IMG/VR virus record: IMGVR_UViG_3300049203_000146
Coordinates: 1 to 38,969 of that record
Direction: 5' to 3' (one strand)
Source of the DNA: a virus
DNA length: 38,969 bases
Part shown: positions 4,562 to 37,787 of the stretch, one piece after another
Position numbering within the stretch: the first letter of the stretch is position 1
Layout of the letters: every line of letters begins with the position of its first letter
Position numbers and translations under genes: made by a program
The notes under the pieces: model-generated
What the model was told of the DNA's origin: nothing
Databases searched by the model: none
The model's input: only the letters and a program-made list of their open reading frames with translations

Positions 4562-5422
4562 ATGGCCAACGAACGCGGCAAGCACCTCGACAACACCCAC
4601 CTCAGCATCGACCAGGCCGAGGCCCGGGGGTTCATCCACCGGGACTACATCGCCCACTGCCTCCGCTGGACGCACGTGGCCAAGCACCTCCAGGCCGGCC
4701 AGAAGTACAAGACCGCCCACATCCTCGACATCGGCTGTGGCAAGGAGGTCCCCCTCGCCAAGCTGATGTACTCCTCCCGCCTCATCCCGGAGACCGGGAG
4801 CTACACCGGGCTGGACTACAACAAGCTCGAGGTGCCGGCCATGTTCCACACCGGCAAGTTCCCCATCAAGCTGCACGGGGGCATGATGTTCCCGCAGGCC
4901 GCGCCGGAGGACGTGTACACCCGGAAGTTCGACGTCATCACCTGTTTCGAGGTCCTCGAGCACGTGGAGCCCGCGCAGGTTGTCATCATGCTGAAGGCCA
5001 TTTCGGGCCTGCTCGCCCCCGGCGGTCGCGCGTTCCTGTCCACCCCCTGCTATGACGCCAAGGTCGGTGCGGCGGCGAACCACGTCAACGAGATGAGCTA
5101 TGGCGCCTTCGGCGCGCTCATCGAGCACAGCGACCTGTGCATCCACGACCACTTCGGGACCTTCGCCTCCATCCGGGACTACCAAGGCCAGCTTGACGCC
5201 ATGTTGGGCGGCGCCTTCAACCGCCTGCGTGAGTACTACGACGTGAACTACCTGGCGACCATCCTGGCGCCCCTGTTCCCGGCGCAGTCCCGCAACTGCC
5301 TGTGGGTCGTGGGCTCGAACGCGGTGGCCAAGAGCCACTTCTTCGCGTCCCCGGCGTATTACACGGACGTGTCCCACTCCTCGTCGGCCATGTGGCCCGA
5401 GTTCGCACGGAGCCTGACATGA
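4562..5422 (+). CDS. class I SAM-dependent methyltransferase
   Basis: AAAGGAGAG precedes ATG 4562; the protein has 286 residues. Motif I (ILDIGCGKEVPLAKL, around residue 60) binds S-adenosylmethionine, and FDVITCFEVLEHVEP (around residue 125) is the usual motif IV region, followed by LLAPGGRAFLSTP. The N-terminal 50 residues and the long C-terminal part are not recognisable, so the substrate is unknown; it lacks the (D/N)PP(Y/F) motif of DNA adenine or N4-cytosine methyltransferases. It has its own promoter and overlaps the MazG-like gene as ATGA. A role in modifying a nucleotide, a glycan or a protein is open. Confidence 0.75.
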   Translation: MANERGKHLDNTHLSIDQAEARGFIHRDYIAHCLRWTHVAKHLQAGQKYKTAHILDIGCGKEVPLAKLMYSSRLIPETGSYTGLDYNKLEVPAMFHTGKFPIKLHGGMMFPQAAPEDVYTRKFDVITCFEVLEHVEPAQVVIMLKAISGLLAPGGRAFLSTPCYDAKVGAAANHVNEMSYGAFGALIEHSDLCIHDHFGTFASIRDYQGQLDAMLGGAFNRLREYYDVNYLATILAPLFPAQSRNCLWVVGSNAVAKSHFFASPAYYTDVSHSSSAMWPEFARSLT

Positions 5423-5925
5423 GCAGCATCCACGACGTCATGCAGTTCCAACGTAAGTTCGACATCCCGGAGAACCGGGAACCCGGGTTCCTGCCCGACA
5501 GCCGGATGGCCGAACGCCTCAACTTCCTGCTCGAGGAGCTCAAGGAGCTGGCGAACGCCTGCGGTTACTTTCTCGACGATGGCAAGGATGGGGCGCTGGA
5601 CATCAAGTTCAAAAAGTTCAGTAACCACCAAAGCGCGGAAGACCTCGAAAAGGCCATCGACGGCCTCGTCGACCTGGTCTACGTCGCCCTCGGCACGGCG
5701 GCCCAGATGGGCCTCGGGGGACTGACCCCGGTCAACGCCCGCGGCCGCTCTCCCATCATCTGGTGGGAGGCCTGGCGCCGCGTGCACGCGGCGAACATGC
5801 AGAAGGTCCGCGTGACCGACGTGTCGCAATCCAAGCGGGGCAGCCCCTACGATTGCGTCAAGCCGCCGGGTTGGGTCGCCCCGACCTTCGGGGACCTTCT
5901 AGGACCTAAAATTCCTACAAGGTGA
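5419..5925 (+). CDS. MazG-like / all-alpha NTP pyrophosphatase
   Basis: ATG 5419 overlaps the methyltransferase stop (ATGA). The 168-residue protein has the all-alpha NTP-pyrophosphatase pattern: LLEELKEL with Glu39, Glu40 and Glu43, and later AIDGLVDLVYVALGTAAQMG with Asp81 and Asp85, the metal-binding set. Members hydrolyse (d)NTPs to NMP and pyrophosphate. Its place before a dNMP kinase and a TS-family hydroxymethylase suggests it supplies or removes a particular nucleotide, possibly dCTP; this is inference from context. The C-terminal 60 residues (WEAWRRVHAANMQKVR, then a KPPGW segment) are typical of phage members. Confidence 0.75.
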   Translation: MSSIHDVMQFQRKFDIPENREPGFLPDSRMAERLNFLLEELKELANACGYFLDDGKDGALDIKFKKFSNHQSAEDLEKAIDGLVDLVYVALGTAAQMGLGGLTPVNARGRSPIIWWEAWRRVHAANMQKVRVTDVSQSKRGSPYDCVKPPGWVAPTFGDLLGPKIPTR

Positions 5926-5948
5926 CCCTGTCGCGACTGCAAAAAGGT

Positions 5949-5978
5949 GTGTACTTAGGGTTACCCTCGCATTAGAAT
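5949..5978 (+). promoter_or_regulatory. promoter GTGTAC-N18-TAGAAT
   Basis: GTGTAC at 5949-5954, 18 bases, then TAGAAT at 5973-5978. The -10 box is followed by ATAGATACG, nearly the ATAGATATG found at the leaderless promoters, but here there is no start codon. TGTCGCGA lies upstream at 5929-5936. The leader contains GAAAGGGG before ATG 6011. The promoter would drive the nucleotide-modification and replication genes. Confidence 0.65.
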
Positions 5979-6010
5979 ATAGATACGCGCAATCCAGAAA
6001 GGGGTCGGTT

Positions 6011-6244
6011 ATGTTGGTAAGGAAGTGTGACGGCTGCGGCCGTGAGCTCAAGGACGGCGAGAACATGGCGGGTCAGACCGTCAACATCCGCCGCCGGATG
6101 CGGGACGTGGAAATTGTGGTCCAGGTCCTGGTCGGCACCAAGGACATCATCAACCATGGTGAGGTTTGCCTCACCTGCGTCCAGAAGATGGTCAAAGAGC
6201 ACAAGATGGCGGCGCCAGTATTAGCACCAGAGGTGCTCGCATGA
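6011..6244 (+). CDS. small zinc-ribbon-like protein (77 aa)
   Basis: GAAAGGGG precedes ATG 6011 by about 9 bases. The protein has CDGCGRELK (CxxC near residue 6) and CLTCVQK (CxxC near residue 54), spaced as in small treble-clef or zinc-ribbon proteins, with a basic strand (VNIRRRMRDVEIVVQVLV) between. It is the first gene after the 5949 promoter and overlaps the kinase gene as ATGA. It could be a small regulator or adaptor; nothing specific is recognised. Confidence 0.65.
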   Translation: MLVRKCDGCGRELKDGENMAGQTVNIRRRMRDVEIVVQVLVGTKDIINHGEVCLTCVQKMVKEHKMAAPVLAPEVLA

Positions 6245-7269
6245 ACGGCCTCATCATCCTCGAGGGCGCCGACGGCACTGGCAAGACCACCCTGGCCGAG
6301 CACCTGAAGGCCAATTACAAGGCCCGGTACCTCCACGCCACCTACCGGTACAAGGACAAGATGTTCCTGTACCACACGGCCATCCTGAAGCACGCCATCG
6401 AGCTCTCCCGGGACCACCTGGTCGTGCTCGACCGCTGCTGGCTGTCGGACACCATCTACGGCGCCGAGTACCGGGGCGGCTCCAAGTGGCCCCTGGTCGG
6501 CCGGTTCCTGGAGCGGGTCGCCCGCAAGCACGCCGCCCTCACCGTCATGTGCCTGGCTGAGGACCTCGACGCCTACGCCAAGCGGTTCGCCCAGCTTCGC
6601 ACGGAGCGTGAGGAGATGTACGCCGACACGACCAACGTCGCCGGGCGGTACCACGACGCCTACCACGGCACCACGACCAAGACGGACCTCGGGGGCACGG
6701 ACGACTACGTCAAGCAACTCATCCGCCAGGGCGGGTTACTTGGCCGCCGTGACGTGCTGCCCTACCACCTCCACCAGGAGGGCACCGACCTGCCCGGGTT
6801 CGCCGCCCGCCTCCTCACCCGCCTCGAGTGGGAACGCGCGAACCAGGTCCCGATGGCCCTCGACACGAAGTTCCACAACTTCCTCGGGTACGCCCCCCGG
6901 GCCAAGTTCGTCATGGTCGGGGACCGGCCCTCGGACGCCAAGTACCGGGGCATCAGCTGGCCTTTCTTCGGCTACCGCAACTCCAGCCTGTACCTGACCG
7001 AGGCCCTCGGCCGCCTGAACGTCGACGAGACCCAGCTCTGCTGGGTCAACATCAACGACACCCACGGCTACCGTACCATCTGCCGCCTGGTCGACACGGA
7101 GGAGCTCATCCCCGTTGTCATGGGCGAGGAGGCGCGGGCTGCCTACATCCGCCTGGGCCTGCCGAGGCATTACCGCTTCATGCCGCACCCGCAGTACTTG
7201 CGCCGCTTCACCAAGAAGTCGGCCCACATCGACACCTGGCTCAAAACCGCCCTGTCGGAGGAGAAATAA
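6241..7269 (+). CDS. deoxynucleoside monophosphate kinase fused to a uracil-DNA-glycosylase-like domain
   Basis: A 342-residue two-domain protein. Residues 1-200 resemble thymidylate kinase: Walker A GADGTGKTT (9-17), a DR motif (64-65) in VVLDRCWLSD, and an Arg-rich lid (RFAQLRTEREEMY). Residues 221-325 resemble the uracil-DNA glycosylase superfamily: VGDRPSD (226-232), a GxxWPFFGYRNSSLYL segment, WVNIND, PVVMG, and PHPQYLRRF (315-323) in the position of the HPS loop. Whether the second domain cuts, binds or only flips a base is unclear, since catalytic residues vary. The kinase would phosphorylate a dNMP, probably the product of the next gene. It overlaps both neighbours (ATGA, TAATG). Confidence 0.72.
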   Translation: MNGLIILEGADGTGKTTLAEHLKANYKARYLHATYRYKDKMFLYHTAILKHAIELSRDHLVVLDRCWLSDTIYGAEYRGGSKWPLVGRFLERVARKHAALTVMCLAEDLDAYAKRFAQLRTEREEMYADTTNVAGRYHDAYHGTTTKTDLGGTDDYVKQLIRQGGLLGRRDVLPYHLHQEGTDLPGFAARLLTRLEWERANQVPMALDTKFHNFLGYAPRAKFVMVGDRPSDAKYRGISWPFFGYRNSSLYLTEALGRLNVDETQLCWVNINDTHGYRTICRLVDTEELIPVVMGEEARAAYIRLGLPRHYRFMPHPQYLRRFTKKSAHIDTWLKTALSEEK

Positions 7270-8090
7270 TGCGCCCCGGAATTCCCATCGCCCACTACGC
7301 CTGGCGTAACCTGCTCAATAAAATCATCGACAACGGGGACATCGTGGCGCCCCGCGGTAAGCTCACCAAGGAGCTGCTGGGCCACGTGACCAAGTTCGAC
7401 ATGGCCCGGCCCGTCGTGGTCGACGAGATGCGCAAGCTCGGCTACCGGTTCATGTGCGCCGAGGCCGCCTGGATTCTGTCCGGGGACAACCGCGTCGCGA
7501 CCATCGCCCCCTACAGCAAGGTCATCAGCCGGTTCAGCGACGACGGCGTGTTCTTCTTCGGCGCCTACGGCCCGCGCATCCGGGACCAGGTGCGGCACGT
7601 CGTCGCGGCCCTCGTGAACGACCCCGACACCCGCCAGGCGGTTATCGAGATTTGGCGTCCGAACCCGCCCATCACTAAGGACGTGCCCTGCACCCTGACC
7701 GTGCAGTTTATGCTGCGCGACGGGAAGCTCGACTGCTTCGTGAACATGCGGTCGTCGGACGTGTGGCTCGGGGTGCCCTACGACTGGTTCAACTTCAGCA
7801 TGCTGACGGGCTACGTGTGCCTGCTGCTTCGGGACAAGACCGGTGACGCCGTGCGGCCCGGGGTCATGCACTTCAACGCGGCCTCCCAGCACCTCTACGA
7901 GGAAAACCGGGAGCGGGCCGAGTACGGCCTGAATTTCATAAACCAGGTGTTCGATTCCCCGGAGTTCGACCCCATGCAGTTCGAGGACCACGAGGAGCTG
8001 GTGGCCCACCTGTGGCACCTGGCCAAGGGCGAGTTCGACGCCTGCCGGCTCAACTTCCTGGTCGACGAGCTCCGCGGGCTGGTGAAATAA
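7269..8090 (+). CDS. thymidylate-synthase-family pyrimidine (dCMP-type) hydroxymethylase
   Basis: A 273-residue member of the thymidylate synthase family. The nucleophile is Cys141 in DVPCTLTVQF, followed by GKLDCFVNMRSSDVWLG with Arg161, Ser162 and Asp164 for phosphate binding, and SQHLY (His208, Tyr210). Two features match T4 dCMP hydroxymethylase rather than thymidylate synthase: CTxTVQ instead of CHxxxQ, and Asp172 (PYDWF) where thymidylate synthases have the Asn that recognises uracil (PFNIA). Known: this Asn-to-Asp exchange gives dCMP preference. The likely product is 5-hydroxymethyl-dCMP; a dCMP methylase is an alternative. The start overlaps the kinase stop as TAATG. Confidence 0.8.
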   Translation: MRPGIPIAHYAWRNLLNKIIDNGDIVAPRGKLTKELLGHVTKFDMARPVVVDEMRKLGYRFMCAEAAWILSGDNRVATIAPYSKVISRFSDDGVFFFGAYGPRIRDQVRHVVAALVNDPDTRQAVIEIWRPNPPITKDVPCTLTVQFMLRDGKLDCFVNMRSSDVWLGVPYDWFNFSMLTGYVCLLLRDKTGDAVRPGVMHFNAASQHLYEENRERAEYGLNFINQVFDSPEFDPMQFEDHEELVAHLWHLAKGEFDACRLNFLVDELRGLVK

Positions 8091-9943
8091 TGAGCTGGAC
8101 CGCCCCCACCGAGTTCCCGGACCTGCGGTTGGCGCCCATCGTGGGCATTGACCTTGAGACCCGGGACCCCAACCTGCTGACCCTCGGACCTGGGGGCGTG
8201 AGAGGAGACGGCTATGTCATCGGCATCTCCGTGGCAACCGACGTTTTTCAAGGCTATTACCCAATTGGCCACGATGGGGGAGGCAACCTTGACCGTGCGC
8301 AGGTCCTGGCTTGGCTTCAGGACGTCCTTGGTGGTGACAACCCCAAGGTTGGGGCGAACATTCTCTATGACCTTGAGTGGCTCCGAGCCAGTGGCGTTGC
8401 TGTCCGTGGCCCGAAGTATGATGTGCAAATCGCCGAGGCCTTGCTCGATGAAAATCGACGGACCTACAAGCTGGACGCTCTCGGCCATGACTACCTAGGC
8501 CAGCGGAAGGCGGAGGACGGCCTCAACGAGTGGGCCGTCGAGCACGGCATCCCGGCCGCGAAGGTCAAGGCCAACCTGTGGCAGATGCCCGCCGAGGTCG
8601 TGGGCCCGTACGCCGAGATGGACGCGACCCTAGCGCTCAAGATTTTCGCCAAGCAGCTGCCGTTGCTGAAGGAGCAGGAGCTGTGGAAGGTGTTCGAGCT
8701 GGAGACGGCCCTCGTGGACCTGCTGCTGGACATGCGGTTCCAGGGCATCCCGGTCGACCTCGACCGCGCCGACGAGGTCCGCAAGCGGCTCGAGGCTGAG
8801 GAGGCGGCGGCCCAAAACCGGCTGGACTCCCTGGCCGGGCAGGCCGTGGACGTGTGGTCCGGGGACGACATCAAGAAGGCCTGCGACCGCCTGGGGCTCC
8901 AATACCCCATGACCGCCAAGGGCAACCCGTCGTTTGAGGCGGAGTGGCTCGAGGCCCAGGAGACGCCCTTCTTCCAGGGCGTCCTCCGCGTGCGGCGCCT
9001 GAACCGGGGCGGCGGCGTGTTCATCCAAAAGAAAATTCTCGAGATGCAGCACAGGGGCCGCGTTCACCCCTCCTTCATGCAGTCTCGTGACGACGACGGT
9101 GGCACGGTGTCCGGCCGCTTCGCGTCGAAGCTGCCGAACATGCAGCAGGTGCCTGCCCGGGACCCGGTGCTCGCGCCGCTCATCCGGAGCATCTACCGCC
9201 CGCTGCCCGGCGCCCTCTGGATGGTCGGCGACTACTCCCAGCAGGAGCCCCGCGTGACCGTGCATTACGCCTACCTCTCAGGCTTCCGTGGGTCCGACGA
9301 GGCACGCCGCCGGTACACCGAGAACCCCGACACCGACTACCACCAGATGGTCGCCGAGATGGCCCACATCCCCCGCAAGGACGCCAAGGCCATGAACCTG
9401 GGCTTGGCCTACGGCATGGGAAAGGCCAAGATGGCGCTTGACCTCGGCCGCTCCATGAAGGAGGTCACCGAGCTCTACGACCAGTACCACGCCAGCGTGC
9501 CCTTCGTGAAGCTGCTCGGGGACAAGTGCACCCGGGTTGCCCAGGACCGGGGCTACATCCGGACCCTGCTGGGCCGTCGCCGCCACTTCGAGCTCTGGGG
9601 CCCGACCAAGTACAGCTCCGGCGTACGCCCGCTGCCGCGGCTGGACGCCATCCAAGAATTTGGGTACCCGATTACCCGCTGGTTCGTGCACAAGGCCATG
9701 AACGCCCTCGTCCAGGGCAGCTCCGCCGACATGGTCAAGGCGGCCATGGTCGAGCTGCACAAGGCCGGGGACATCCCGCACATCACCATCCACGATGAGC
9801 TTGACCTGTCGGTGGCCGACGAGGCCCACGCCCGGCGCGTGCGGCAGGCCATGCTGGATTGCGTCAAGCTGGAGGTCCCCCTGAAGGTGGACGTGGAGCT
9901 GGGCCCCTCGTGGGGCGAGGCGAAGGAGGTGAACCTTGGATAA
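8090..9943 (+). CDS. polA-like: family A DNA polymerase with 3'-5' exonuclease
   Basis: 617 residues from ATG 8090 (TAATG overlap). The exonuclease domain has GIDLETRDP (Asp21, Glu23), NILYDLEWL and YAEMDATLAL. The polymerase domain has motif A VGDYSQQEPR (about 379-388), motif B RKDAKAMNLGLAYG (about 427-440) and motif C HITIHDELDL (about 564-573). The size and lack of a 5' nuclease are typical of phage replicative polymerases. The residue equivalent to E. coli Phe762 is Leu (in NLGLAYG), a variant known from many viral polymerases. The stop overlaps the next gene's TTG start. It is expected to be the phage replicase with the primase and helicases to the right. Confidence 0.95.
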   Translation: MSWTAPTEFPDLRLAPIVGIDLETRDPNLLTLGPGGVRGDGYVIGISVATDVFQGYYPIGHDGGGNLDRAQVLAWLQDVLGGDNPKVGANILYDLEWLRASGVAVRGPKYDVQIAEALLDENRRTYKLDALGHDYLGQRKAEDGLNEWAVEHGIPAAKVKANLWQMPAEVVGPYAEMDATLALKIFAKQLPLLKEQELWKVFELETALVDLLLDMRFQGIPVDLDRADEVRKRLEAEEAAAQNRLDSLAGQAVDVWSGDDIKKACDRLGLQYPMTAKGNPSFEAEWLEAQETPFFQGVLRVRRLNRGGGVFIQKKILEMQHRGRVHPSFMQSRDDDGGTVSGRFASKLPNMQQVPARDPVLAPLIRSIYRPLPGALWMVGDYSQQEPRVTVHYAYLSGFRGSDEARRRYTENPDTDYHQMVAEMAHIPRKDAKAMNLGLAYGMGKAKMALDLGRSMKEVTELYDQYHASVPFVKLLGDKCTRVAQDRGYIRTLLGRRRHFELWGPTKYSSGVRPLPRLDAIQEFGYPITRWFVHKAMNALVQGSSADMVKAAMVELHKAGDIPHITIHDELDLSVADEAHARRVRQAMLDCVKLEVPLKVDVELGPSWGEAKEVNLG

Positions 9944-10175: not shown

Positions 10176-10552
10176 AACCGGAGCAACTGTTGTGGCAGCT
10201 CGTGCGCCATAAGTTCCCAGGCGCCTTCATCGAGCGCGTCGAGAACGTGGCGGGCTCCGGCATGCCGGACGTCCACGCCCTGGACGTCTCGTGGGAATAT
10301 TGGGTCGAGCTCAAGGTCGCCCCCGAGGGCCGCGAGTGGAGCCCCCTGTCCCTGCTCCGCCCCGCCCAGCGCGCGTGGCACGCCAGCGCGGCCAAGGCCG
10401 GCGCCTACATCTTCATCCTGGTTCGCCAGGGCAACCAGGTCGTGCTGTTCAACTCCCGTGGCACGGCCGCCCACGAGCTGTGGCGAGGGACGCGTCCCTG
10501 GGACTGGGACGCGTTCGCGGCGGCCATCCGGGGGCTCAAATGGTCTACGTAG
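10172..10552 (+). CDS. VRR-NUC / Holliday-resolvase-like nuclease
   Basis: 126 residues from GTG 10172 (GTGA overlap). The core reads ENVAGSGMPDVHALD then YWVELKVAPEG: a PD (residues 32-33) followed by E-x-K (Glu46, Lys48), the PD-(D/E)XK arrangement of VRR-NUC nucleases. A C-terminal strand-helix with IFILVRQGNQVVLF supports the fold. Known members cut branched or flap DNA; here it lies directly behind the polymerase and probably processes replication or recombination intermediates. This is the second PD-(D/E)XK enzyme in the phage. Confidence 0.75.
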   Translation: MKPEQLLWQLVRHKFPGAFIERVENVAGSGMPDVHALDVSWEYWVELKVAPEGREWSPLSLLRPAQRAWHASAAKAGAYIFILVRQGNQVVLFNSRGTAAHELWRGTRPWDWDAFAAAIRGLKWST

Positions 10553-10845
10553 TCCAGGAGGTTCCGGGACGTAACTTGCTGCCCGCGGAGAAGTACGGGG
10601 AACTCACGGTGCTGCTGCCCGCGGGCCAAATTCAGCTTGACGCGGCCCTGGCCGTGGAGCTGCTGCACCGCCGGCTCATGCGCTTCGATGACCAGGACTA
10701 CCTCCTGTGCATCGGGGACCCCGTGGCCATCGGCCTGGCGACCGCCGTCGCGGCGTCACGAAACTACGGCCGCGTCAAGCTGCTGAAGTGGGACCGCCAG
10801 GAGCACCGTTACTACGTCGTCAAAGCCAACATCCAGGAGAACTAG
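10540..10845 (+). CDS. hypothetical protein (101 aa)
   Basis: ATG 10540 lies 13 bases inside the end of the nuclease gene behind a GGGGG stretch. The protein (MVYVVQEVPGRNLLPAEKYG) looks beta-rich at first, then helical (LDAALAVELLHRRLMRFDDQDYLL) and ends with a beta hairpin of basic and aromatic residues (VKLLKWDRQEHRYYVVKA). GC-rich third positions support coding in this frame. No domain is recognised. Context suggests a replication accessory, but nothing in the sequence proves it. Confidence 0.6.
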   Translation: MVYVVQEVPGRNLLPAEKYGELTVLLPAGQIQLDAALAVELLHRRLMRFDDQDYLLCIGDPVAIGLATAVAASRNYGRVKLLKWDRQEHRYYVVKANIQEN

Positions 10846-10846
10846 A

Positions 10847-11068
10847 ATGAAAACGCTCGAAGTGCAGTACACCGACATGGCCAAGAACACGCCCCGGGTG
10901 CCTGCCGGGTCCAACATCTTCCGCGAGGTGCGGACGACGGTCCGGGGGCTCAACCGCAACCCGCGCCGCACCGTCAACGTGCGCCTGGTGAACAAGCCGG
11001 GTGCCATCATCGAGAAGGACGGCCAGAAGTACCTCATCACCCGCCATGGCAAGCGCCTGGCCATCTAG
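10847..11068 (+). CDS. small basic protein (73 aa)
   Basis: CAGGAGAA before ATG 10847 is a good ribosome site. The protein is strongly basic (RTTVRGLNRNPRRTVNVRLVN and KYLITRHGKRLAI), with few acidic residues, so nucleic-acid binding is plausible. No known fold is recognised. It is followed after 9 bases by the coiled-coil protein gene. Confidence 0.6.
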   Translation: MKTLEVQYTDMAKNTPRVPAGSNIFREVRTTVRGLNRNPRRTVNVRLVNKPGAIIEKDGQKYLITRHGKRLAI

Positions 11069-11077
11069 AAAGGACCC

Positions 11078-11617
11078 ATGGAACCCATCAACTACGCGGC
11101 GGCCAGCGTGCCGCAGGACAAGGACCTCAGCAAGGTCGCCTCCCTCGTGGAGCTTCAGCTCGCCCTGGAACAGCAGGTCGAGGAAATCGAGGGCCGCCTG
11201 AAGGACAAGAAGGAGCAGCTCCGCAAGGTCCAGGAGTACGACCTGCCGGAGGCCATGGCCGAGGTCGGCCTCGCGTCCGTGACCACGAAGGATGGCGCCA
11301 AGGTTGTCGTCAAGCCGTTTTACAGCGGCAAGATTGACGCGGAGAATTGCGACGCCGCCCACGGTTGGCTGCGTGAGCACGGCCACGGCGACCTCATCAA
11401 GCATGAAATTACCGTCCCCATCGGCAAGGGCCAGGACCAGGTCGCCCAGGACCTCGTGGCCACCCTGACCCGGGAAGGCCTGTCCTACAAGGACAAGGAG
11501 GGGGTCCACCCCCAAACACTGTCCGCGTTCATCCGCGAGCAAGTCGAGAAGGGCCACGCCATCCCGCTCGAGACGTTCAAGGCGTTCATCGGCCACAAGG
11601 CCAAAATCACCCGTTGA
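11078..11617 (+). CDS. coiled-coil protein of the replication region (179 aa)
   Basis: AAAGGA precedes ATG 11078. Residues about 20-55 form a predicted coiled coil (VELQLALEQQVEEIEGRLKD and on), followed by LPEAMAEVGLASVTTKDG, VKPFYSGKID, and a C-terminal helical part (HPQTLSAFIREQVEKG) ending HKAKITR. This architecture is familiar from phages in which such a gene precedes a single-strand-binding-like protein, but its biochemical role is unknown to me. The gene just downstream encodes that kind of protein, so the two may act together in DNA replication or annealing. Confidence 0.65.
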   Translation: MEPINYAAASVPQDKDLSKVASLVELQLALEQQVEEIEGRLKDKKEQLRKVQEYDLPEAMAEVGLASVTTKDGAKVVVKPFYSGKIDAENCDAAHGWLREHGHGDLIKHEITVPIGKGQDQVAQDLVATLTREGLSYKDKEGVHPQTLSAFIREQVEKGHAIPLETFKAFIGHKAKITR

Positions 11618-11628
11618 AAGGAGAAACT

Positions 11629-12417
11629 ATGAGCAAGGAATTAGTCGAAAAGAAGGAGGCCGCCCCGCCGGCGGTCATGGCCGAGATGGCCAGCATGGCC
11701 AACGTCGGGTTCGACGGCATGTCCGTGCAGGACGCCGCCATCCCGTACCTGATGGTGCTGCAGTCGCAGTCCCCCCAGGTCAAGAAGGGCCCGGGCAAGG
11801 TCGAGGGCGCCGAGGAGGGCGACTTCTACAACAGCGTGACCCAGCGCGTCTACAAGGGTGACAAGGGCATCCGGGTCATCCCGTGCGCCTTCCGCAAGGC
11901 CTACGTCGAGTGGGTGCCCAAGACGGCCGGCGGCGGCTTCGTGGCCTCGTACGACGACGATGCCAAGCTGGCCGAGTGCCACAAGGACCCGGTCACGGGC
12001 CGCGACATGCTGCCCAACGGCAACCACCTGGTGGCCACGGCCTACCACTACGCCCTCATCGTCGAGGAAAGTGGCGCCTTCGAGCGTGTGGTCATCTCGA
12101 TGGCCAGCACTCAGCTGAAGGTCTCGCGCCGCTGGAACAGCCAGATGATGGCCCTGCAAATGGACGGGCCCGCGGGCAAGTTCACGCCGCCGCCGTTCTC
12201 GCACAGCTACCTGGCGACCACGAAGCTGGAGCAGAAGGACAGCAATACCTGGTACGGCTGGAACATCGGTGCCCCGACCATCGTGACCGAACCTGGCATC
12301 TTCGCCGCGGCGATGAAGTTCTGGGAAGATGTGCGGAAGGGCTTCGTGAAGGCGAAGGCCCCGGACGTCGACGCGGAGGCACCCGCGGCCCCGACCGGCG
12401 ACAGCAAGCACTTCTAA
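11629..12417 (+). CDS. candidate ssDNA-binding / recombination mediator protein (262 aa)
   Basis: AAAGGAGA precedes ATG 11629; an upstream in-frame TTG at 11614 is less likely. The protein has an Ala-rich N-terminus, a conserved-looking core (IPYLMVLQSQSPQVKKG, EGAEEGDFYNSVTQRVYKG, IRVIPCAFRKAYVEWVPK, STQLKVSRRWNS) and an acidic, Pro-Ala tail ending GDSKHF. An acidic tail ending in an aromatic residue is what phage ssDNA-binding proteins such as T7 gp2.5 use to contact the polymerase and helicase. I recognise the core as a widespread phage family next to replication genes, but the ssDNA-binding role is inference. The primase also ends in a similar tail (QDKEHF). Confidence 0.6.
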   Translation: MSKELVEKKEAAPPAVMAEMASMANVGFDGMSVQDAAIPYLMVLQSQSPQVKKGPGKVEGAEEGDFYNSVTQRVYKGDKGIRVIPCAFRKAYVEWVPKTAGGGFVASYDDDAKLAECHKDPVTGRDMLPNGNHLVATAYHYALIVEESGAFERVVISMASTQLKVSRRWNSQMMALQMDGPAGKFTPPPFSHSYLATTKLEQKDSNTWYGWNIGAPTIVTEPGIFAAAMKFWEDVRKGFVKAKAPDVDAEAPAAPTGDSKHF

Positions 12418-15311: not shown

Positions 15312-16744
15312 TGTACGCCATGAAAACCAAGCCGTTCCAGCACCAGCTCACCGCCTTCGAGCGCAGCAAGGACATGGCCGCCTTCGCCCTCTTCATGGAG
15401 ATGGGGACCGGCAAGACCAAGGTCGCCATCGACACGGCGGGGCACCTGTTCACCGAGCAAAAAATTGATGCCCTGCTTGTTATCGGCAACAAGGGCTCGT
15501 ACCGCAACTGGGTGGACAACGAGATACCCGCGCACCTGCCGGGTGACATCCCGCGTTACGTCACCTACTGGGACAGCGCCGCGTCGAAGCCGCTCCAGGA
15601 AACGTACGAGGACATCATGAGGCCCGGGGGTTACTTCCTGCGCGTGCTCGTCATGAACGTCGAGTCGCTGGCCTTCAAGCGGTCATTCGCGCTGGCCGAG
15701 AAGTTCTGCAAGGCGTTCGCGACCATGCTGGTGGTCGACGAGTCCACGACGGTGAAGAACCCCGGCGCGGCGCGGTCGAAGGTGGCGGCCAAGCTGGGCG
15801 CCCTGTGCCGCTACCGCCGCATCATGACCGGCGAGCCCATCACCAACAGCCCCCTGGACCTGTACGCCCAGTGCGAGGTCCTCGGCCAGGGGCTGTTGGG
15901 CTTCCGGAGCTACTACGCCTTCCGCGCCGTCTACGCGGACATGGTGCAAATTTCGGCCGGGCAGCGCGCCTTCAAGAAAATCGTGGGCTACAAGAACCTG
16001 GACAACCTGACCCGGTCCATCCAGGCCTGGAGCTACCGGGTCAAGAAGGAGGACTGCCTGGACCTGCCGCCGAAGGTGTACTTGACCCACACGGTCGAGC
16101 TGACCGACGAGCAGCGGGCCCTGTACGACCGACTGCGGGAGGACGCCCTGGCCGAGTTAAACGGCGAGTTGGTGACCGCGCCCCTGGTCATCACGAAGCT
16201 GTTGCGGCTGCACCAGGTGGTGTGCGGTCACCTGACCGACGACACCGGCACGGTCCACGATGTTAAGAACAACCGCTTGGACGCCCTCCTGGACGTGGTT
16301 GAGGAAACCGCCGGGAAGGTCATCATCTGGGCGACCTACCGGCGTGACATCACCGCGATTCATGACGCCCTCGCGAAGGCGTACGGGCTTGAGGCGGTGG
16401 TGGCCTACCACGGGGGCACTGACACCACGGACCGGCAAAATGCCGTCCAGCGGTTCCAGGACCCCCAAAGCGCCTGCCGGTTCTTCGTGGGCAACCAGGC
16501 GACCGGGGGCTTCGGCATCACCCTGACCCAGGCGACCACCGTCGTCTACTACTCGAACAACTACAACCTGGAGCTGCGCCTGCAGTCCGAGGACCGCGCG
16601 CACCGCATCGGGCAGACCAAGTCCGTGACCTACGTGGACCTGGTGTCACCGAAGACCGTGGACGAGAAGATTATCAAGGCCCTCCGGGCCAAGCGACAGA
16701 TTGCGACGAGCGTCCTGGGTGACGCCTGGCGCGAGTGGATTTAA
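15311..16744 (+). CDS. Snf2-like superfamily 2 helicase/ATPase
   Basis: 477 residues from ATG 15311 (TGATG overlap). Motif I is MEMGTGKTK (30-38), motif II VVDESTTVKN (DEST in place of DEAH), motif III MTGEPITNSPLDLY, and the C-terminal half has IIWATYRR, GGTDTTDRQNAVQRF, TGGFGITLTQATTVVYYSN and motif VI QSEDRAHRIGQTK. These are hallmarks of the Snf2 family, which translocates on duplex DNA. Phage members take part in replication or recombination, for example by remodelling forks. No nuclease or HNH domain is attached. Having both an SF1 and an SF2 helicase but no DnaB-type helicase is notable. Confidence 0.9.
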   Translation: MYAMKTKPFQHQLTAFERSKDMAAFALFMEMGTGKTKVAIDTAGHLFTEQKIDALLVIGNKGSYRNWVDNEIPAHLPGDIPRYVTYWDSAASKPLQETYEDIMRPGGYFLRVLVMNVESLAFKRSFALAEKFCKAFATMLVVDESTTVKNPGAARSKVAAKLGALCRYRRIMTGEPITNSPLDLYAQCEVLGQGLLGFRSYYAFRAVYADMVQISAGQRAFKKIVGYKNLDNLTRSIQAWSYRVKKEDCLDLPPKVYLTHTVELTDEQRALYDRLREDALAELNGELVTAPLVITKLLRLHQVVCGHLTDDTGTVHDVKNNRLDALLDVVEETAGKVIIWATYRRDITAIHDALAKAYGLEAVVAYHGGTDTTDRQNAVQRFQDPQSACRFFVGNQATGGFGITLTQATTVVYYSNNYNLELRLQSEDRAHRIGQTKSVTYVDLVSPKTVDEKIIKALRAKRQIATSVLGDAWREWI

Positions 16745-16764
16745 CACCTAGCAGGAGGATGACG

Positions 16765-17937
16765 ATGGCACAGCAACCAGTTACACCTAAACAGCAGCAG
16801 GAGGCCGTGGACGCGCTCAAGAAGCACGGCACCAAGAAGGCGGCGGCGCGGGCCCTGGGCCTGCCGGATGGCACCTTCCGGAACCGCCTGCTGGCGGCGG
16901 CCCGCCCCGTGGAAAAGCCCCAGGAAACCCTGGCCCAGCGCCGTGAGGTCAAGGCAGACTATAGCCGCGCGTCGAAGGCCGAGGCCCTCCTGAAGGAGTC
17001 CGAGAAGGAGCGTGACGAGCTGCGCACGGCCCTGGAGGTCGTGACCGTCCTCGACAAGCGGGCGCCCGCTGAGCGCCTCATCAAGAAGCAGCGCGACGGG
17101 GACCACGAGGCCGTGCCCCACCTCATGGCGTCGGACTGGCACTGTGAGGAGCGCGTCGACCCCGCCCAGCTGGGTGGCATTTACAACAAGTACGACCCGG
17201 ACATCTTCAAGGCTAGCGCCGAGGCCTTCTTCCAGAACGGCCTGACCCTCATCGAGCAGCAGGCGCCGTACATCAAAATCCACGACGCCGTGCTCATCTT
17301 CGGCGGGGACATGATTACAAACCACCTGCACGAGGAGAACAAGTCGACCAACTACATGGGCCCCGCGAAGGCGTGCGCCCTGGCGTTCGACGCGATGGCC
17401 GCCGGCCTCGACTTCCTGCTGGAGCACACCAAGTACCGGTGGACCGTCATCTGCAAGGTCGGCAACCATGGACGCAGCACCAAGGAAATGTTCTCGGCGA
17501 CGGCCAACGACCACTCGTGGGAATACCTGCTCTACAAGATGCTGGCCAAGCGGTACGAGGCGGCGGACAAGGTCAAGTTCATCATCGACGAGGCCTACCA
17601 CACCTACTTCACCTGCTACAAGTTCATCGAGCGCATCCACCACGGGGAGGGCGTCAAGTACGGCGGGGGTGTGGGCGGCATCACCATCCCCATCAACAAG
17701 GCGGTCTCCGCCTGGAACCAGGCGACACGGGCGGACCTGGACGTCATGGGGCATTTCCACCAGTACACGGACGGCGAGTCGTTCATCGTGAACGGGAGCC
17801 TCATCGGGGTGAACCCCTGGTCCCTGAAGATGAAGTTCAAGCCCGAGCCGCCCAAGCAGACGATGTACCTCATCGACAGCAAGTACGGCAAGACCGGGCG
17901 GTTCCCCATCTTCATCCGCGACACGGGGAGGTGGTGA
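16765..17937 (+). CDS. HTH plus calcineurin-like metallophosphoesterase
   Basis: AGGAGG at 16753-16758 places the start at ATG 16765 rather than ATG 16759. The 390-residue protein starts with a helix-turn-helix (KKAAARALGLPDGTFRNRL, about residues 24-42), then a charged linker, then a metallophosphoesterase: SDWHC (about 122-126), FGGDM, GNHGR, RIHHGEG, and GHFHQ. These are the metal-ligand motifs of the family that includes Mre11/SbcD. The HTH suggests binding of particular DNA. It could be a nuclease or phosphatase acting on DNA ends; the exact substrate is not evident. Confidence 0.8.
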   Translation: MAQQPVTPKQQQEAVDALKKHGTKKAAARALGLPDGTFRNRLLAAARPVEKPQETLAQRREVKADYSRASKAEALLKESEKERDELRTALEVVTVLDKRAPAERLIKKQRDGDHEAVPHLMASDWHCEERVDPAQLGGIYNKYDPDIFKASAEAFFQNGLTLIEQQAPYIKIHDAVLIFGGDMITNHLHEENKSTNYMGPAKACALAFDAMAAGLDFLLEHTKYRWTVICKVGNHGRSTKEMFSATANDHSWEYLLYKMLAKRYEAADKVKFIIDEAYHTYFTCYKFIERIHHGEGVKYGGGVGGITIPINKAVSAWNQATRADLDVMGHFHQYTDGESFIVNGSLIGVNPWSLKMKFKPEPPKQTMYLIDSKYGKTGRFPIFIRDTGRW

Positions 17938-31003: not shown

Positions 31004-33209
31004 TGGGGTCTCCAACGGATTGTGCCGATGCATCGGGCATCGTACCGGCCCCCGGGTCATTCGCGGGTCCCGGCGGGGGTAAATCCGGGGTCGCGGGTTC
31101 ATTTCCGGACGGCGGCAGGGCCATCTCGGCAAGTTGGTTGACGGCGTCAATCAGGTGCATGACCTGCTGCTTTGTCGCCTGAATTTCCTGGGTCAGGGCG
31201 TCCACGACGCTGCCCTCGGCCTTCTCGGCGTTGAGGCCTTGCGCCTCCGCCTTGGCAATTTCAAGCTCGACCTTGGCGCGGGATTCCTGCTCCTTGATGT
31301 CCAGCTCACGGGACTTGAGCTGGAGCTCGCCGTCCTTGTTCTTCTGGGCTATTTCGAGCTCCTTGGCCTTGGCGGACACCTCGTCCAGCTGGGCCTTGAG
31401 CTCGTTGATGATGCCCTCGGCGTGCTTCTCGAACGCGTCGAGCTCGGGGTTGTCCTTCTCCTCGCCCTCCTCGGCGGCGATGACCTCGGGGGGCAGGGTG
31501 GCCTTGAACCGCTTGGCAACCTTGTCGCGGTTCTTGATGTCCATGTTCTCGACCAGCACGTCCATGAGGAGCGCGCCGGCCTGCGGGTTGGCCCCGATGA
31601 TGTTCGAGAGCTTCTCGACGGCCTGCTCTCGGCGGGTCTGGTCGCCGGCGCCCACGTCCACCTCGATGCCATACTTGCCGGTGTTGAGGTCGAGGAACTT
31701 GGTCTCCCCGCTCTTTTCGTCCTTAAATTCCTGGTTGATTTTGATGACCTTGGCCACGCCGTCCTCGCCCAGGACCCGGAGGGCGTAGGGGGTGTCGATG
31801 ATGTGGCAGTGCAGGTCGACCAGGATGCGGCCGGCGTGCTTCAGGGACATGGAGGCGTTGTCGATGAAGTCGTAGGTGGCGATGTTGCCCTGGGCCTGGC
31901 GGGCCAGGATGGCCTTGCCGCTGGTCTCGTTCGACTGCGCGCCCAGGGAGGGGTCGTAGAGGCTGGAGGTGGTCTTGACGTCCTCGGACGCGACCATCAT
32001 GTAGCGCTCGATGGTCGGGTCGCCGGAGGAGTGGTCCGCGCGCTGGGGCGGCGGGAGCAGCTGGCCGCCCAGGGTCTTGGGCTTGTACAGCAGGACCGGG
32101 ATGTTCTTGACGTTGGCTTCCTTCCAGAACTTCTGGTAGGGCTCCGTCTGGCCCTCGGCCGCGACCCAGGGGGCGATGGGTGCCAGGGCGATGCGCTCCA
32201 CCATCTTGGACGACATGTAGTTGTACATGCGGTTGGCGTCCTTGGAGTTGCGCGTGATGCCGCGGAAGTCGAGCTTGCCGTCCACGAAGGACTCACGGCC
32301 CCAGATGGGGACGACGGGGATGAAGCGGGTGTTCAGCTCCTGGATGGGCTGGTCGCTGTACTCGCCCTGGATGAGCTTGCCGGCGCAGAGCTTGGCCCAC
32401 TTGGCCACCGGCCGGCAGGTCTTGCGGTCCGCCTTGATGAGGCCGGACGCCTTGAGGTTCGCCAGAATCATCTGGTCAACGCTGGAGCCGAGGAACTTCT
32501 TGCCGTCGGCCAGCTGGTAGAGGCGGTCGTCGACGTCCTCAATCCAGAACAGCTCACCGACCCGGATGCCGTCGCCGTTCCGCCAGACCTTCATGCGCTC
32601 GCCCTGGGGCAGGGAGTCCTTGGGCCGGACCCCCAGGCGCTCGGCGGCGGCCTCGGAGATTTCGTCCACGATGGACACGATGCGGGCGTCGCTGCCGTCC
32701 ACCTCGTGGGAGTCGGGGTCCCACATCACGGACAGGGGGTTGCGGATGCGGCGGACGCGGGCGACCTGCTGGAAGGAGTCGAAGTCCTCGTACTCGGTGT
32801 CGACGCGGAAGAAGCCGAAGCCCGCGCGGACGGCGCACTCGAACGCCCACATGTAGGCGAAGCGGGCGTTGGACTGGTACTCGACGTCGCGGATGAGGTG
32901 CAGGTGGGCCTCGGCCACGTCCGGGTCACCGTCGTCCCCGACCGGCTTGACGTTGATGGCCAGCTTCTGCTGCTTGGCCTCGTTGACGATGCGGCGCACG
33001 TTCGGGTCAATCTTGTTCACGACGAGCATGGGGCGCTTGCTGTCCGCGGCCCGCTCGTTCTTAACGTCGGTGGGCCACATGTCACCGTGCGAGAACGAGT
33101 TGTCGTCCTCGTAGTTCTTGCGGATGTCGCTGAAGAAGTCCTCCGACTTCTTGAAGGCGTCCTCGAACAGCGCGACGGCGTCCTTCTCGTCACGAACCTG
33201 GTTGCTCAC
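30993..33209 (-). CDS. portal protein, P22 gp1-like
   Basis: 738 residues from GTG 33209 (GTGA overlap with the terminase C-terminal frame). The start VALFEDAFKKSEDFFSDIRK, the segment RPMLVVNKIDPNVRRIVNEA, then FAYMWAFECAVRAGFGFFRV and RNPLSVMWDPDSHEVDGSDA match the P22 portal family. The C-terminal 200 residues are a long charged coiled coil (AKELEIAQKNKDGELQLKSR), like the P22 barrel, ending in a Pro-rich tail. It forms the dodecameric DNA channel and docks the terminase. Confidence 0.9.
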   Translation of the reverse strand: MSNQVRDEKDAVALFEDAFKKSEDFFSDIRKNYEDDNSFSHGDMWPTDVKNERAADSKRPMLVVNKIDPNVRRIVNEAKQQKLAINVKPVGDDGDPDVAEAHLHLIRDVEYQSNARFAYMWAFECAVRAGFGFFRVDTEYEDFDSFQQVARVRRIRNPLSVMWDPDSHEVDGSDARIVSIVDEISEAAAERLGVRPKDSLPQGERMKVWRNGDGIRVGELFWIEDVDDRLYQLADGKKFLGSSVDQMILANLKASGLIKADRKTCRPVAKWAKLCAGKLIQGEYSDQPIQELNTRFIPVVPIWGRESFVDGKLDFRGITRNSKDANRMYNYMSSKMVERIALAPIAPWVAAEGQTEPYQKFWKEANVKNIPVLLYKPKTLGGQLLPPPQRADHSSGDPTIERYMMVASEDVKTTSSLYDPSLGAQSNETSGKAILARQAQGNIATYDFIDNASMSLKHAGRILVDLHCHIIDTPYALRVLGEDGVAKVIKINQEFKDEKSGETKFLDLNTGKYGIEVDVGAGDQTRREQAVEKLSNIIGANPQAGALLMDVLVENMDIKNRDKVAKRFKATLPPEVIAAEEGEEKDNPELDAFEKHAEGIINELKAQLDEVSAKAKELEIAQKNKDGELQLKSRELDIKEQESRAKVELEIAKAEAQGLNAEKAEGSVVDALTQEIQATKQQVMHLIDAVNQLAEMALPPSGNEPATPDLPPPGPANDPGAGTMPDASAQSVGDPNVQ

Positions 33210-34201
33210 GCGCCCATCCAGCTGTTGGAGGACGGCATGTACAGGCCCGGGGTGCCGTCGTCATCGTTGTCCTTGACCGGGGCCAGGTTCGTCGCAATTT
33301 CCAAGGCGCCCATGATGGCGTAGCGGGTGGCGTCCATCAGATGGTCGTTCTTCTTGACAACCTTGCCCTTCTCGTCGCGGCGGTAGAGGCGCGCCTCGGC
33401 GAACCAGTCGCTGCAGGACGCGAACACCTTCAGGCGGCCGGTCGCGAGCCGCTGCCACATCTCGAGCAGGCCCGCCTCGACGGCGTTGTTGGCGTTCACC
33501 AGGTTCAGGCCCTCGTCGAGGTAGATGTCGATGACCTTCTTGCCGTCCACCTGGCTGCGGCCGTTGGCGGCGGGGTCGATGGCGCCCGGAATCCAGTCGC
33601 CCGGGGCCTTGATGGCCTTGGCGTGGACCGTGGGCTCCACCTCACCGCGCTTGTAGGTGCGGTAGACGTACATGACGTCCGTGTCGCGGTCATGGGCAAT
33701 GTGCGCCGCGGCGGTCCAGTTCCAGCCCACGTCCATGCCGAAGTTCTTGAACCAGTGCGCGGGCACCGGAAAGTCCAGGACCTTGTAGTCGTCCTCGGGG
33801 ATGGGGAGGATGGCGCCGGCGCCGAGCTGCGGGATGCCCTTGGAGCGGGCGTCGCGCTGGAACGGCGGGATGCTGGCGAGCAGCTCCGCCTTCTGCTTGG
33901 CGGACAGGTGGGGGACGTCGTCCCAGGTCGCCATGACCACGAACTTGTTCATCGGGTGGACCTCGGCCAGGTAGCAGTCGTAATAGTCGCACTCCTCGAG
34001 GCCGACGTACAGGCTCGGCGCGACCCAGGGGCGTTCCCACGCGGGGCCACCGTCGCGGGAGGTGTCGGGGTCGACGTGGACCGGGGGCAGGTGGAAGACG
34101 GGTTGGAAGGCCTCATGCCGGGTCCCCGTGGGCGCGCACGCCAGGGTCCAGGTCAACGCGACCAGGCAGCCGGCCGTCCTCCAAAAACGACATAACGACA
34201 T
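33206..34201 (-). CDS. terminase large subunit, C-terminal nuclease part (second reading frame)
   Basis: This frame carries the terminase nuclease half: FVVMATWDDVPHLSAKQKAE, PPFQRDARSKGIPQLGAGAI, GMDVGWN, GAIDPAANGRSQ and KNDHLMDATRYA, with acidic residues in the usual metal-binding places. The ATG at 34201 is only the first in this frame; residues encoded upstream of about 34112 overlap the other frame and look non-native. About 60 residues (from EAFQPVFHLPP to EVHPM) separate the frame junction from the conserved domain, longer than usual, yet with strong third-position GC. Expression needs a +1 shift from the ATPase frame, an independent start, or the sequence has an indel. Confidence 0.75.
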   Translation of the reverse strand: MSLCRFWRTAGCLVALTWTLACAPTGTRHEAFQPVFHLPPVHVDPDTSRDGGPAWERPWVAPSLYVGLEECDYYDCYLAEVHPMNKFVVMATWDDVPHLSAKQKAELLASIPPFQRDARSKGIPQLGAGAILPIPEDDYKVLDFPVPAHWFKNFGMDVGWNWTAAAHIAHDRDTDVMYVYRTYKRGEVEPTVHAKAIKAPGDWIPGAIDPAANGRSQVDGKKVIDIYLDEGLNLVNANNAVEAGLLEMWQRLATGRLKVFASCSDWFAEARLYRRDEKGKVVKKNDHLMDATRYAIMGALEIATNLAPVKDNDDDGTPGLYMPSSNSWMGA

Positions 34202-34871
34202 CAGACATCCCCATGAGCGGCGTGAAGGTGAGCACGACGAGCCCGTCGGTCGTCATGGTGCGGAGCAGGCACTCCGTGTAGATGTCGAGCGGCGGCTCCT
34301 CGTCTAGCCATACGTAGTCCATCTCATCGCCCTGAAACGCCTGCCGGCGCTGGTCGTAGGACTTGAGGAAGAGGGTTGAGACGCCGCCGGCGACGTGCTG
34401 GACGTAGACGACCTCGAAGGCGTCGGGCACGCCGGTCTTGGGGCGCTTGTCCACGATGGCGCCGCCGGGGACCAGGCCGGTGCCGAGGTCATGGACGGGG
34501 CCGAGAAGCTTCCCCTGAATGATGTCGCGGGTGGTCTTGGCCGTGTCGCCCGCGGCGGTCGCGACGACGGGCTTGTCGAAGCGGCGGCCGGCCCACCAGT
34601 GGGGGTAGTTGCCGGTGAGGTGGCAGACGAGCTCGTAGCCGCCGGCCACGGTCTTCCCGACGCGGTTGCCCGCCATGAAGCACCGCTCACGGTATTGGGT
34701 GCCGGCGGCAAAGAACTCGAGGTGGCGCGGGTAGAGCTCACGGCGCAGGCTCCCCGTGTCCGGGAACATCCTGTTGTGCAGGTTCTTCCGGCGCCGTTCC
34801 CTCTCCGCCAGGAGTTCCTCCATCGTCGGAAAGTTCGCCAGCAATTGCGATAAGCTGCTCGAGCTTGTCAT
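34113..34871 (-). CDS. terminase large subunit, N-terminal ATPase part (first reading frame)
   Basis: 252 residues from ATG 34871, overlapping the small-subunit gene by 134 bases. The packaging ATPase motifs are Walker A AGNRVGKT (67-74) and Walker B MDYVWLDEE (184-192), followed by the coupling segment LVVLTFTPLMGMSDVV. The frame stops at TGA 34115-34113, just where the nuclease half should continue; that half lies in the +1 frame. A GGGG run (plus-strand 34124-34127, CCCC) a few codons before the stop would let tRNA-Gly re-pair after a +1 slip. A later start at the in-frame ATG of MEELLAERERR is also possible. Confidence 0.8.
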   Translation of the reverse strand: MTSSSSLSQLLANFPTMEELLAERERRRKNLHNRMFPDTGSLRRELYPRHLEFFAAGTQYRERCFMAGNRVGKTVAGGYELVCHLTGNYPHWWAGRRFDKPVVATAAGDTAKTTRDIIQGKLLGPVHDLGTGLVPGGAIVDKRPKTGVPDAFEVVYVQHVAGGVSTLFLKSYDQRRQAFQGDEMDYVWLDEEPPLDIYTECLLRTMTTDGLVVLTFTPLMGMSDVVMSFLEDGRLPGRVDLDPGVRAHGDPA

Positions 34872-37003: not shown

Positions 37004-37248
37004 ACTGCCACGTCAGCCGGTCCTACCACGTGAACGACGTGTGCCTGTACCTGAGCCACCAGGGCGCGCCGACCGGCCTGTGTGCCGTCTGCGGGAAGCT
37101 GAAGCTCCTGCCCTGGAAGCACAACGTCGCCTTCCGCGTCTACCAGAAGGCCAACCAGGAAAGGTGCTACATCGAGGTCACGCCGCGTTCCTGGCTGCAC
37201 GGCGGCCACCAGGCCATCAACATCTCATACCCGGAGCCCATCAAATGA
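37000..37248 (+). CDS. small zinc-ribbon-like protein (82 aa), GTG start
   Basis: GTG 37000 overlaps the preceding TGA. The protein has C3 and, further on, CAVCGKLK (CxxC near residue 31), with aromatic and basic residues around (YQKANQERCYIEV). The CxxC with nearby His and Cys could bind zinc. The C-terminus (HQAINISYPEPIK) looks beta. No family is recognised. The stop overlaps the HD-domain gene as ATGA. Confidence 0.55.
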   Translation: MNCHVSRSYHVNDVCLYLSHQGAPTGLCAVCGKLKLLPWKHNVAFRVYQKANQERCYIEVTPRSWLHGGHQAINISYPEPIK

Positions 37249-37787
37249 CCGTCCAAACCACCTGGCCCTGGCAGCAGACCTACCGCGGCCACCGCTTCGA
37301 GTTCCACAACCCCAAGGCGCGGATGGTCGACGTCGGCGACATCGCCCACGCGCTCAGCCTCCAGTGCCGCTTCAACGGCCACGTCCGGGAGTTCTACTCC
37401 GTCGCGCAGCACTGCGTCCACGTGTCGGGCATGCTGCCGGACCACCTGGCCCTGGTCGGCCTGCTCCACGACGCGTCGGAGGCCTACCTCGGGGACCTCA
37501 TCACCCCGGTCAAGGCCATGGTGCCGCAGTTCAAGGTCCTCGAGATGAAGGTCGAGCAGGCCGTCGCCGACCGCTTCGGCTTCGACTCGGACCTGCTTGA
37601 CCACCCGCTGGTCAAGCACGCGGACCACGTCATGCTCGCGACCGAGGCCAGCCAGCTGCTCGACTGCCCGCCCCGCGGCTGGGACCTCCACGTCGCGCCG
37701 GCCAACTTTACCCTCGCCCCGCTTGGCCCGGCCGAGGCCAAGAAGCTCTTCCTCACCCGCTTCCAGGAGCTGTACCATGGCACCTAG
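37245..37787 (+). CDS. HD-domain phosphohydrolase (YfbR/DatZ-like)
   Basis: 180 residues from ATG 37245 (ATGA overlap). HD-domain ligands are visible: His in YSVAQHCVHV, the HD pair in LVGLLHDASEAYLGD (His75-Asp76), and Asp126 in KHADHVMLATEA. Relatives include 5'-deoxynucleotidases and dNTP phosphohydrolases of phages. In 2-aminoadenine phages such an enzyme (DatZ) removes dATP, but the PurZ partner is absent here. A role in shaping the nucleotide pool together with the 5419-8090 enzymes is plausible; the substrate is not predictable from the sequence alone. Confidence 0.85.
   Translation: MTVQTTWPWQQTYRGHRFEFHNPKARMVDVGDIAHALSLQCRFNGHVREFYSVAQHCVHVSGMLPDHLALVGLLHDASEAYLGDLITPVKAMVPQFKVLEMKVEQAVADRFGFDSDLLDHPLVKHADHVMLATEASQLLDCPPRGWDLHVAPANFTLAPLGPAEAKKLFLTRFQELYHGT

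Follow-up and report, generated by a model that had tools for sequence, protein, structure and literature searches.

A predicted cytosine-modification operon with a T4-type deoxycytidylate hydroxymethylase in an uncultured podovirus-type phage

The window considered here is an entire IMG/VR virus record (IMGVR_UViG_3300049203_000146; 38,969 bases, G+C 65%) whose structural genes (major head protein, portal, head closure and tail spike) are of the podovirus type. From 4562 to 9943 it holds six co-directional genes on the + strand, in tight tandem with little spacing, which are predicted to form a cytosine-modification cassette around a homologue of thymidylate synthase (TS). Four of the five junctions overlap through ATGA or TAATG. 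ATGA joins the stop codon of an S-adenosylmethionine (SAM)-dependent methyltransferase gene to the start of a MazG-like nucleoside triphosphate (NTP) pyrophosphatase gene, and TAATG joins a deoxynucleoside monophosphate (dNMP) kinase gene to TS as well as TS to a DNA polymerase. An earlier reading of the window from its letters (the sequence-only reading) had listed the pyrophosphatase, a fusion of the kinase with a uracil-DNA glycosylase (UDG) domain, and the TS homologue. These genes are all there, and the coupling of TS to the kinase that it described is evident in the TAATG overlap; it had left out the methyltransferase at 4562-5422 and overlooked the absence of a deaminase of deoxycytidine monophosphate (dCMP). 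The genes are as follows (dCTP, deoxycytidine triphosphate; hm, hydroxymethyl; ORF, open reading frame):

4562..5422, + strand: class I SAM-dependent methyltransferase (Methyltransf_23; Pfam E 2e-14), specific to the cassette
5419..5925, + strand: MazG/PRA-PH-like NTP pyrophosphatase (PRA-PH E 1.8e-8; phrog_671 E 1e-17), putative dCTPase (dCTP to dCMP)
6011..6244, + strand: 77-aa ORF with two CxxC pairs (zinc-ribbon-like), overlapping the kinase start
6241..7269, + strand: dNMP kinase (P-loop, SPbeta YorR-like; phrog_761 E 2e-12) with a C-terminal UDG-like domain (about 6847-7266), putative hm-dCMP kinase
7269..8090, + strand: predicted TS-family deoxycytidylate hydroxymethylase (Thymidylat_synt E 1.8e-22; R122, D138, C141, T142, S162, D164, D172, H208, Y210)
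8090..9943, + strand: family A DNA polymerase (PolA; DNA_pol_A E 8e-51), its start overlapping the TS stop, putatively incorporating modified dCTP

The TS homologue at 7269 was aligned with E. coli ThyA, T4 gp42 and the 5-hydroxymethyluracil (hmU)-type enzymes of SPO1, M6, ViI and PhiW-14. Cys141, NMRSSD, CTLTVQ and Asp172, the features from which the sequence-only reading had argued, are all present in the alignment to ThyA and gp42. Position 177 (E. coli numbering) is Asp in T4 gp42 and in the window (D172) and Asn in ThyA and the four hmU-type enzymes, while position 147 is Thr in gp42 and the window (T142), His in ThyA and Asn in the hmU-type enzymes. In place of the Asn177 and His147 of a TS that forms deoxythymidine monophosphate (dTMP), the window enzyme therefore has Asp and Thr, and it is these two positions that separate the TS genes of cytosine-modified contigs from others in the MetaGPA study (PMC8670742). 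Other residues speak to the reaction itself. The T4 ternary-complex paper describes an Asp placed three positions ahead of the catalytic Cys as a signature of hydroxymethylation and also discusses the absent C-terminal tail (PMC6400193). The window enzyme carries this Asp, associated with water activation, as D138-x-x-C141, and the C-terminal active-site seal is absent, with none of 43 homologues having residues aligned to E. coli 263-264. S162 and R122 match the deoxyribose pocket of deoxy-specific enzymes. The ribo-specific CMP hydroxymethylase MilA features Ala and Lys in its ribose pocket (A176, K133'; PMC5175136), and neither is found in the window enzyme. Almost all of the determinants tested for deoxycytidylate hydroxymethylases are in place, and ORF 7269-8090 very probably encodes a dCMP hydroxymethylase of the T4 gp42 type.

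Identity to T4 gp42 is only 23%, and the nearest proven enzymes by sequence are the SPO1-type hydroxymethylases of deoxyuridine monophosphate (dUMP), with 32% identity to SPO1 gp29. Like the window TS, these enzymes have an Asp ahead of the catalytic Cys, no C-terminal seal and an SDDG...GAYG segment on a common fold, and the tree puts the cassette TS nearer to them than to gp42. An alternative possibility is that the cassette enzyme is itself a dUMP hydroxymethylase and that thymine, as in SPO1 or M6, is the modified base. However, all proven hmU enzymes compared have Asn177/Asn147 where the cassette has Asp/Thr. The tree also hinted that this clade and T4 gp42 acquired the Asp/Thr pair independently; a single origin was not rejected (AU p 0.157, approximately unbiased test), and convergence is not claimed.

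The substrate residues are conserved among the relatives. A scan of IMG/VR with TS returned 36 loci; once the window and six related phage records were added, the first set came to 43 sequences, with Asp177 in 43/43 and Thr147 in 42/43. Because the Asp was part of one of the six peptides used in this search, another IMG/VR scan was begun from the methyltransferase. It returned 80 loci, of which 65 have TS (Asp177 in 65/65, Thr147 in 64/65), and about 39 of these 65 TS genes sit in contigs that the TS scan had missed; the loci lacking TS are mostly truncated by the contig end. Six further records have TS located elsewhere, and Asp and Thr are found in these too, in one case in a more distant T4-like protein. 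The order methyltransferase, MazG, kinase-UDG, TS and dCMP deaminase is seen in most contigs, usually ending with PolA, and the kinase is absent from some loci. About 30 IMG/VR contigs and four phage records, among them the cultured phages AXL3 and PW916, show the conserved arrangement, and its recurrence in dozens of independent contigs is far beyond chance. A scan of a genome contig collection with TS gave no bacterial or prophage copy. Xanthomonas phage Xp15 (L054) may also have modified cytosine, since its TS homologue carries Asp177 and Thr147 together with the Asp that precedes the Cys.

In the MazG-like protein, the acidic motif E39/E40/E43 ... D81/D85 is kept in at least 37 of 38 relatives, and together with the family profile this places it in the MazG/PRA-PH group, in agreement with the sequence-only reading; dCTP is its putative substrate. 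The 77-aa ORF falls in no clear family, and no homologue of it was seen among the relatives. The kinase-UDG protein gave a confident AlphaFold model (mean predicted local distance difference test, pLDDT, 90.8), whose N-terminal part is a P-loop kinase fold resembling phage SPbeta YorR (best folds 2axp and YorR 3kb2) and is thymidylate-kinase-like. The kinase half of the fusion proposed earlier is thereby supported. For the UDG half the case is more indirect and the assignment tentative: the window copy does not itself match the UDG profile, the homologue L040 is above the Pfam cut-off (three of 20 members match), and the alignment of the C-terminal domain keeps the VG(D/E) and HP...RF segments. 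A fold search with the whole model ranked kinases alone, and the assignment of the C-terminal domain as UDG-like, by homology through L040, rests on sequence.

Two cultured relatives, Stenotrophomonas phage AXL3 and Pseudoxanthomonas phage PW916, carry orthologues of the methyltransferase, the NTP pyrophosphatase, the kinase-UDG and TS (gp27-gp31 in AXL3) with matching residues. AXL3 has a TS 46% identical to that of the window, and what the two phages have in common is limited to the methyltransferase, MazG, kinase, TS, PolA and a helicase. Unlike the window phage, AXL3 and PW916 are siphoviruses and have dCMP deaminase and ThyX, and their genes are annotated as thymidylate synthesis. Restriction data are available for AXL3 only. 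Of 37 restriction enzymes tried on its virion DNA, 35 did not cut, the exceptions being TasI (AATT) and Tru1I (TTAA), so that every tested enzyme with G or C in its site failed; the authors annotated gp28 as thymidylate synthase and left the resistance unexplained (PMC7504290). MluCI and MseI, with the same AATT and TTAA sites, cut the DNA of T4 (PMC7653180). The cassette very probably explains the resistance of AXL3. The same digests bear on a modified thymine, since in SP8, whose DNA contains hmU, only about 8% of enzymes are resisted (PMC7653180), and together with the Asp/Thr pair they make a dUMP hydroxymethylase the least probable of the alternatives, with hardly any weight left to it.

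Under the annotation of AXL3 and PW916, dCMP deaminase would supply dUMP and TS would convert it to dTMP in ordinary thymidylate synthesis. The dCMP deaminase adjoins TS in most relatives, and a thymidylate-kinase-like gene is present, both as this reading would have it. However, Asp177 is found in every homologue, the window has no dCMP deaminase, and AXL3 DNA is restriction resistant; moreover, AXL3 and two contigs encode ThyX, and therefore dTMP supply there need not depend on the cassette TS. Ordinary thymidylate synthesis is accordingly very improbable.

A closer alternative is that the TS homologue works as a dCMP methylase, as does the Xp12 enzyme, which also belongs to the TS family and acts on dCMP, and that the phage DNA carries plain 5-methylcytosine (5mC). 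In its favor, D177 alone turns an E. coli-type TS into a dCMP methylase (PMC8670742). The D138 before the Cys and the absent C-terminal seal are instead traits of hydroxymethylases, and the digests differ as well: KpnI and AhdI fully cut Xp12 5mC DNA (PMC7653180), whereas KpnI and Eam1105I, an AhdI isoschizomer, failed on AXL3 DNA (PMC7504290), the genome of which has 13 KpnI and 14 Eam1105I sites. Plain 5mC is therefore unlikely in AXL3, and its cytosine probably carries more than a methyl group. It is by product and digests, not by sequence, that Xp12 is set apart from the cassette, and a dCMP methylase is an unlikely explanation, with more to be said for it than for thymidylate synthesis.

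Taken together, these observations suggest, with a probability of about 0.78, that the operon at 4562-9943 makes a 5-substituted dCTP and that the phage polymerase uses it instead of cytosine when copying the genome, which would shield the DNA against host nucleases. From homology, residues, conservation and linkage, all of which are observed, we infer the following reactions and their order, along with roles for the methyltransferase and the UDG-like domain. The MazG-like enzyme would remove dCTP and yield dCMP, and the TS homologue at 7269 would hydroxymethylate dCMP at C5, with methylene-tetrahydrofolate as the donor. The kinase at 6241 would convert hm-dCMP to the diphosphate, the host would make the triphosphate, and PolA at 8090 would incorporate hm-dCTP. 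The SAM methyltransferase at 4562 probably modifies 5-hydroxymethylcytosine (hmC) further, at the nucleotide or DNA level, and wrong bases (uracil or hmU) may be kept in check by the UDG-like domain that follows the kinase. The sequence-only reading had proposed a route to hydroxymethyl-dCTP analogous to that of T4 in this podovirus-like phage. That proposal is strengthened by the residues for cytosine, deoxyribose and water addition, by conservation, by linkage to a dCTPase-type gene and a kinase, and by AXL3, and where it held modified cytosine to be a possibility in this phage, "very probably" is now the fitting strength.

Several points weigh on the other side. The window phage is uncultured, and the sites that fail to be cut in AXL3 DNA hold both C and G, such that resistance could in principle stem from modification of G; no deazaguanine genes are listed in the AXL3 gene table. 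In the TS homologue, T4 Ser94 (S94/Y96) is replaced by Gly98 (G98/Y100), a Ser that the T4 paper counts in the hydroxymethylation signature (PMC6400193). The hmU makers SPO1 and M6 likewise have Gly or Ala at this position, and because these hydroxymethylases also lack the Ser, it does not define hydroxymethylation across the TS family. Q123 stands in place of the second phosphate Arg, and Gln is found there in SPO1 and ViI as well. A 34-kb contig (L087) has the methyltransferase and MazG with no TS. A dCMP deaminase is present in 19 of 20 records tested, the exception being the window, where none was found elsewhere either. Finally, no known hmC glycosyltransferase or carbamoyltransferase was found, and for the glycosyltransferase this agrees with the sequence-only reading. 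Of the 20 records, none but the window has a 5'-deoxynucleotidase (YfbR-like, phrog_318; 37245-37787, + strand).

The methyltransferase is closely tied to the cassette. Among 50,697 phage isolate records, METHYLTRANSFERASE was found (E 1e-12) in five only, all carrying a D177-type TS, while TS homologues occur in 3,035 of the same records. In IMG/VR it is paired with MazG in 75 of 80 loci and shares its record with TS except in a few longer contigs, and few proteins of the cassette are better conserved (50-63% identity to most relatives). Neither the PCQ motif of C5 nor the (D/N/S)PP(Y/F) motif of N4/N6 DNA methyltransferases was seen in its alignment, read by eye, in which STPCYD is present, and fold searches gave no specific subtype, the nearest being diverse small-molecule, Hen1-like and cap methyltransferases. 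A carbamoyltransferase was considered as the decorating enzyme and none was found in 12 records (the window and 11 related ones). Carboxymethylation of the CmoX type was also considered; the cassette enzyme is no homologue of the C5-methyltransferases. Because neither a carbamoyltransferase nor a glycosyltransferase was seen, the methyltransferase is the best candidate for further modification of hmC.

It is conceivable, if rather doubtful, that the methyltransferase has hydroxymethylcytosine as its substrate, either as hm-dCMP or within DNA, for example by O-methylation to 5-methoxymethyl-deoxycytidine, an undescribed base in phages like AXL3, and that the kinase-UDG fusion couples the loading of the modified nucleotide to wrong-base removal. 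Another possibility, short of even odds, is that cytosine is modified and the linked methyltransferase is unrelated to this, having an RNA, protein or small-molecule substrate; this concerns the methyltransferase step and not the core claim. The missing PCQ or DPPY motif and the diversity of the nearest solved folds would fit such a substrate, as would the presence of TS without the methyltransferase in HTVC200P/119P and in contigs L042/L043, whereas the confinement of the methyltransferase to isolates with this TS, its pairing with MazG and its conservation argue for a role in the cassette. In L081, L087 and L090 no TS was found, and a DNA polymerase comes after the methyltransferase-MazG pair; a DNA cytosine-5-methyltransferase-like gene (PPC motif) lies near the cassette at L043:3973-5490 and L062:9078-10181.

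The pathway is known in outline from T4 and MetaGPA. In T4, gp42, the dCTPase gp56, the dNMP kinase gp1 and the dCMP deaminase cd have the same activities as those predicted for the cassette, and gp42 agrees with the window TS in the D177/T147 pair, in the Asp that precedes the Cys and in having no C-terminal tail. In contrast to T4, the window has a MazG-type pyrophosphatase, a kinase-UDG fusion and a linked methyltransferase in one compact operon, with no glucosyltransferase found and no deaminase. The MetaGPA contigs with 5-carbamoyloxymethylcytosine resemble the cassette in TS Asp177, PRA-PH and a dCMP deaminase (the last in the relatives only). They differ in having a carbamoyltransferase, the place of which is taken by the methyltransferase in the cassette. 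In Shewanella phage Thanatos, which encodes a dCTP pyrophosphatase, a dCMP deaminase and a dCMP hydroxymethyltransferase/TS, modified cytosine was shown by mass spectrometry (PMC12838424). The methyltransferase, the kinase-UDG fusion and the link to AXL3 are new, and no paper describing the cassette as a modification operon was found in the open-access PMC literature. Modified cytosine is thus predicted in dozens of unrelated environmental phages and two cultured ones, and a genetic reason can be offered for the restriction resistance of AXL3, where the gene had been read as thymidylate synthase. An uncharacterised methyltransferase that occurs in phage isolates only with the cassette would be a likely source of a new DNA base.

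Other features of the window lie outside the cassette. In the replication region, 10549-12417 (+ strand) encodes homologues of Pam3 phage gp32, gp33 and gp34 with their order kept. A 400-aa protein at 16735-17937 (+ strand) has no Pfam match and by eye appears metallophosphoesterase-like with an N-terminal helix-turn-helix. The large terminase appears to be split into overlapping ORFs at 34113-34871 and 33206-34201 (- strand), in different frames and both matching phrog_2, which may reflect a frameshift, a sequencing error or a programmed event.

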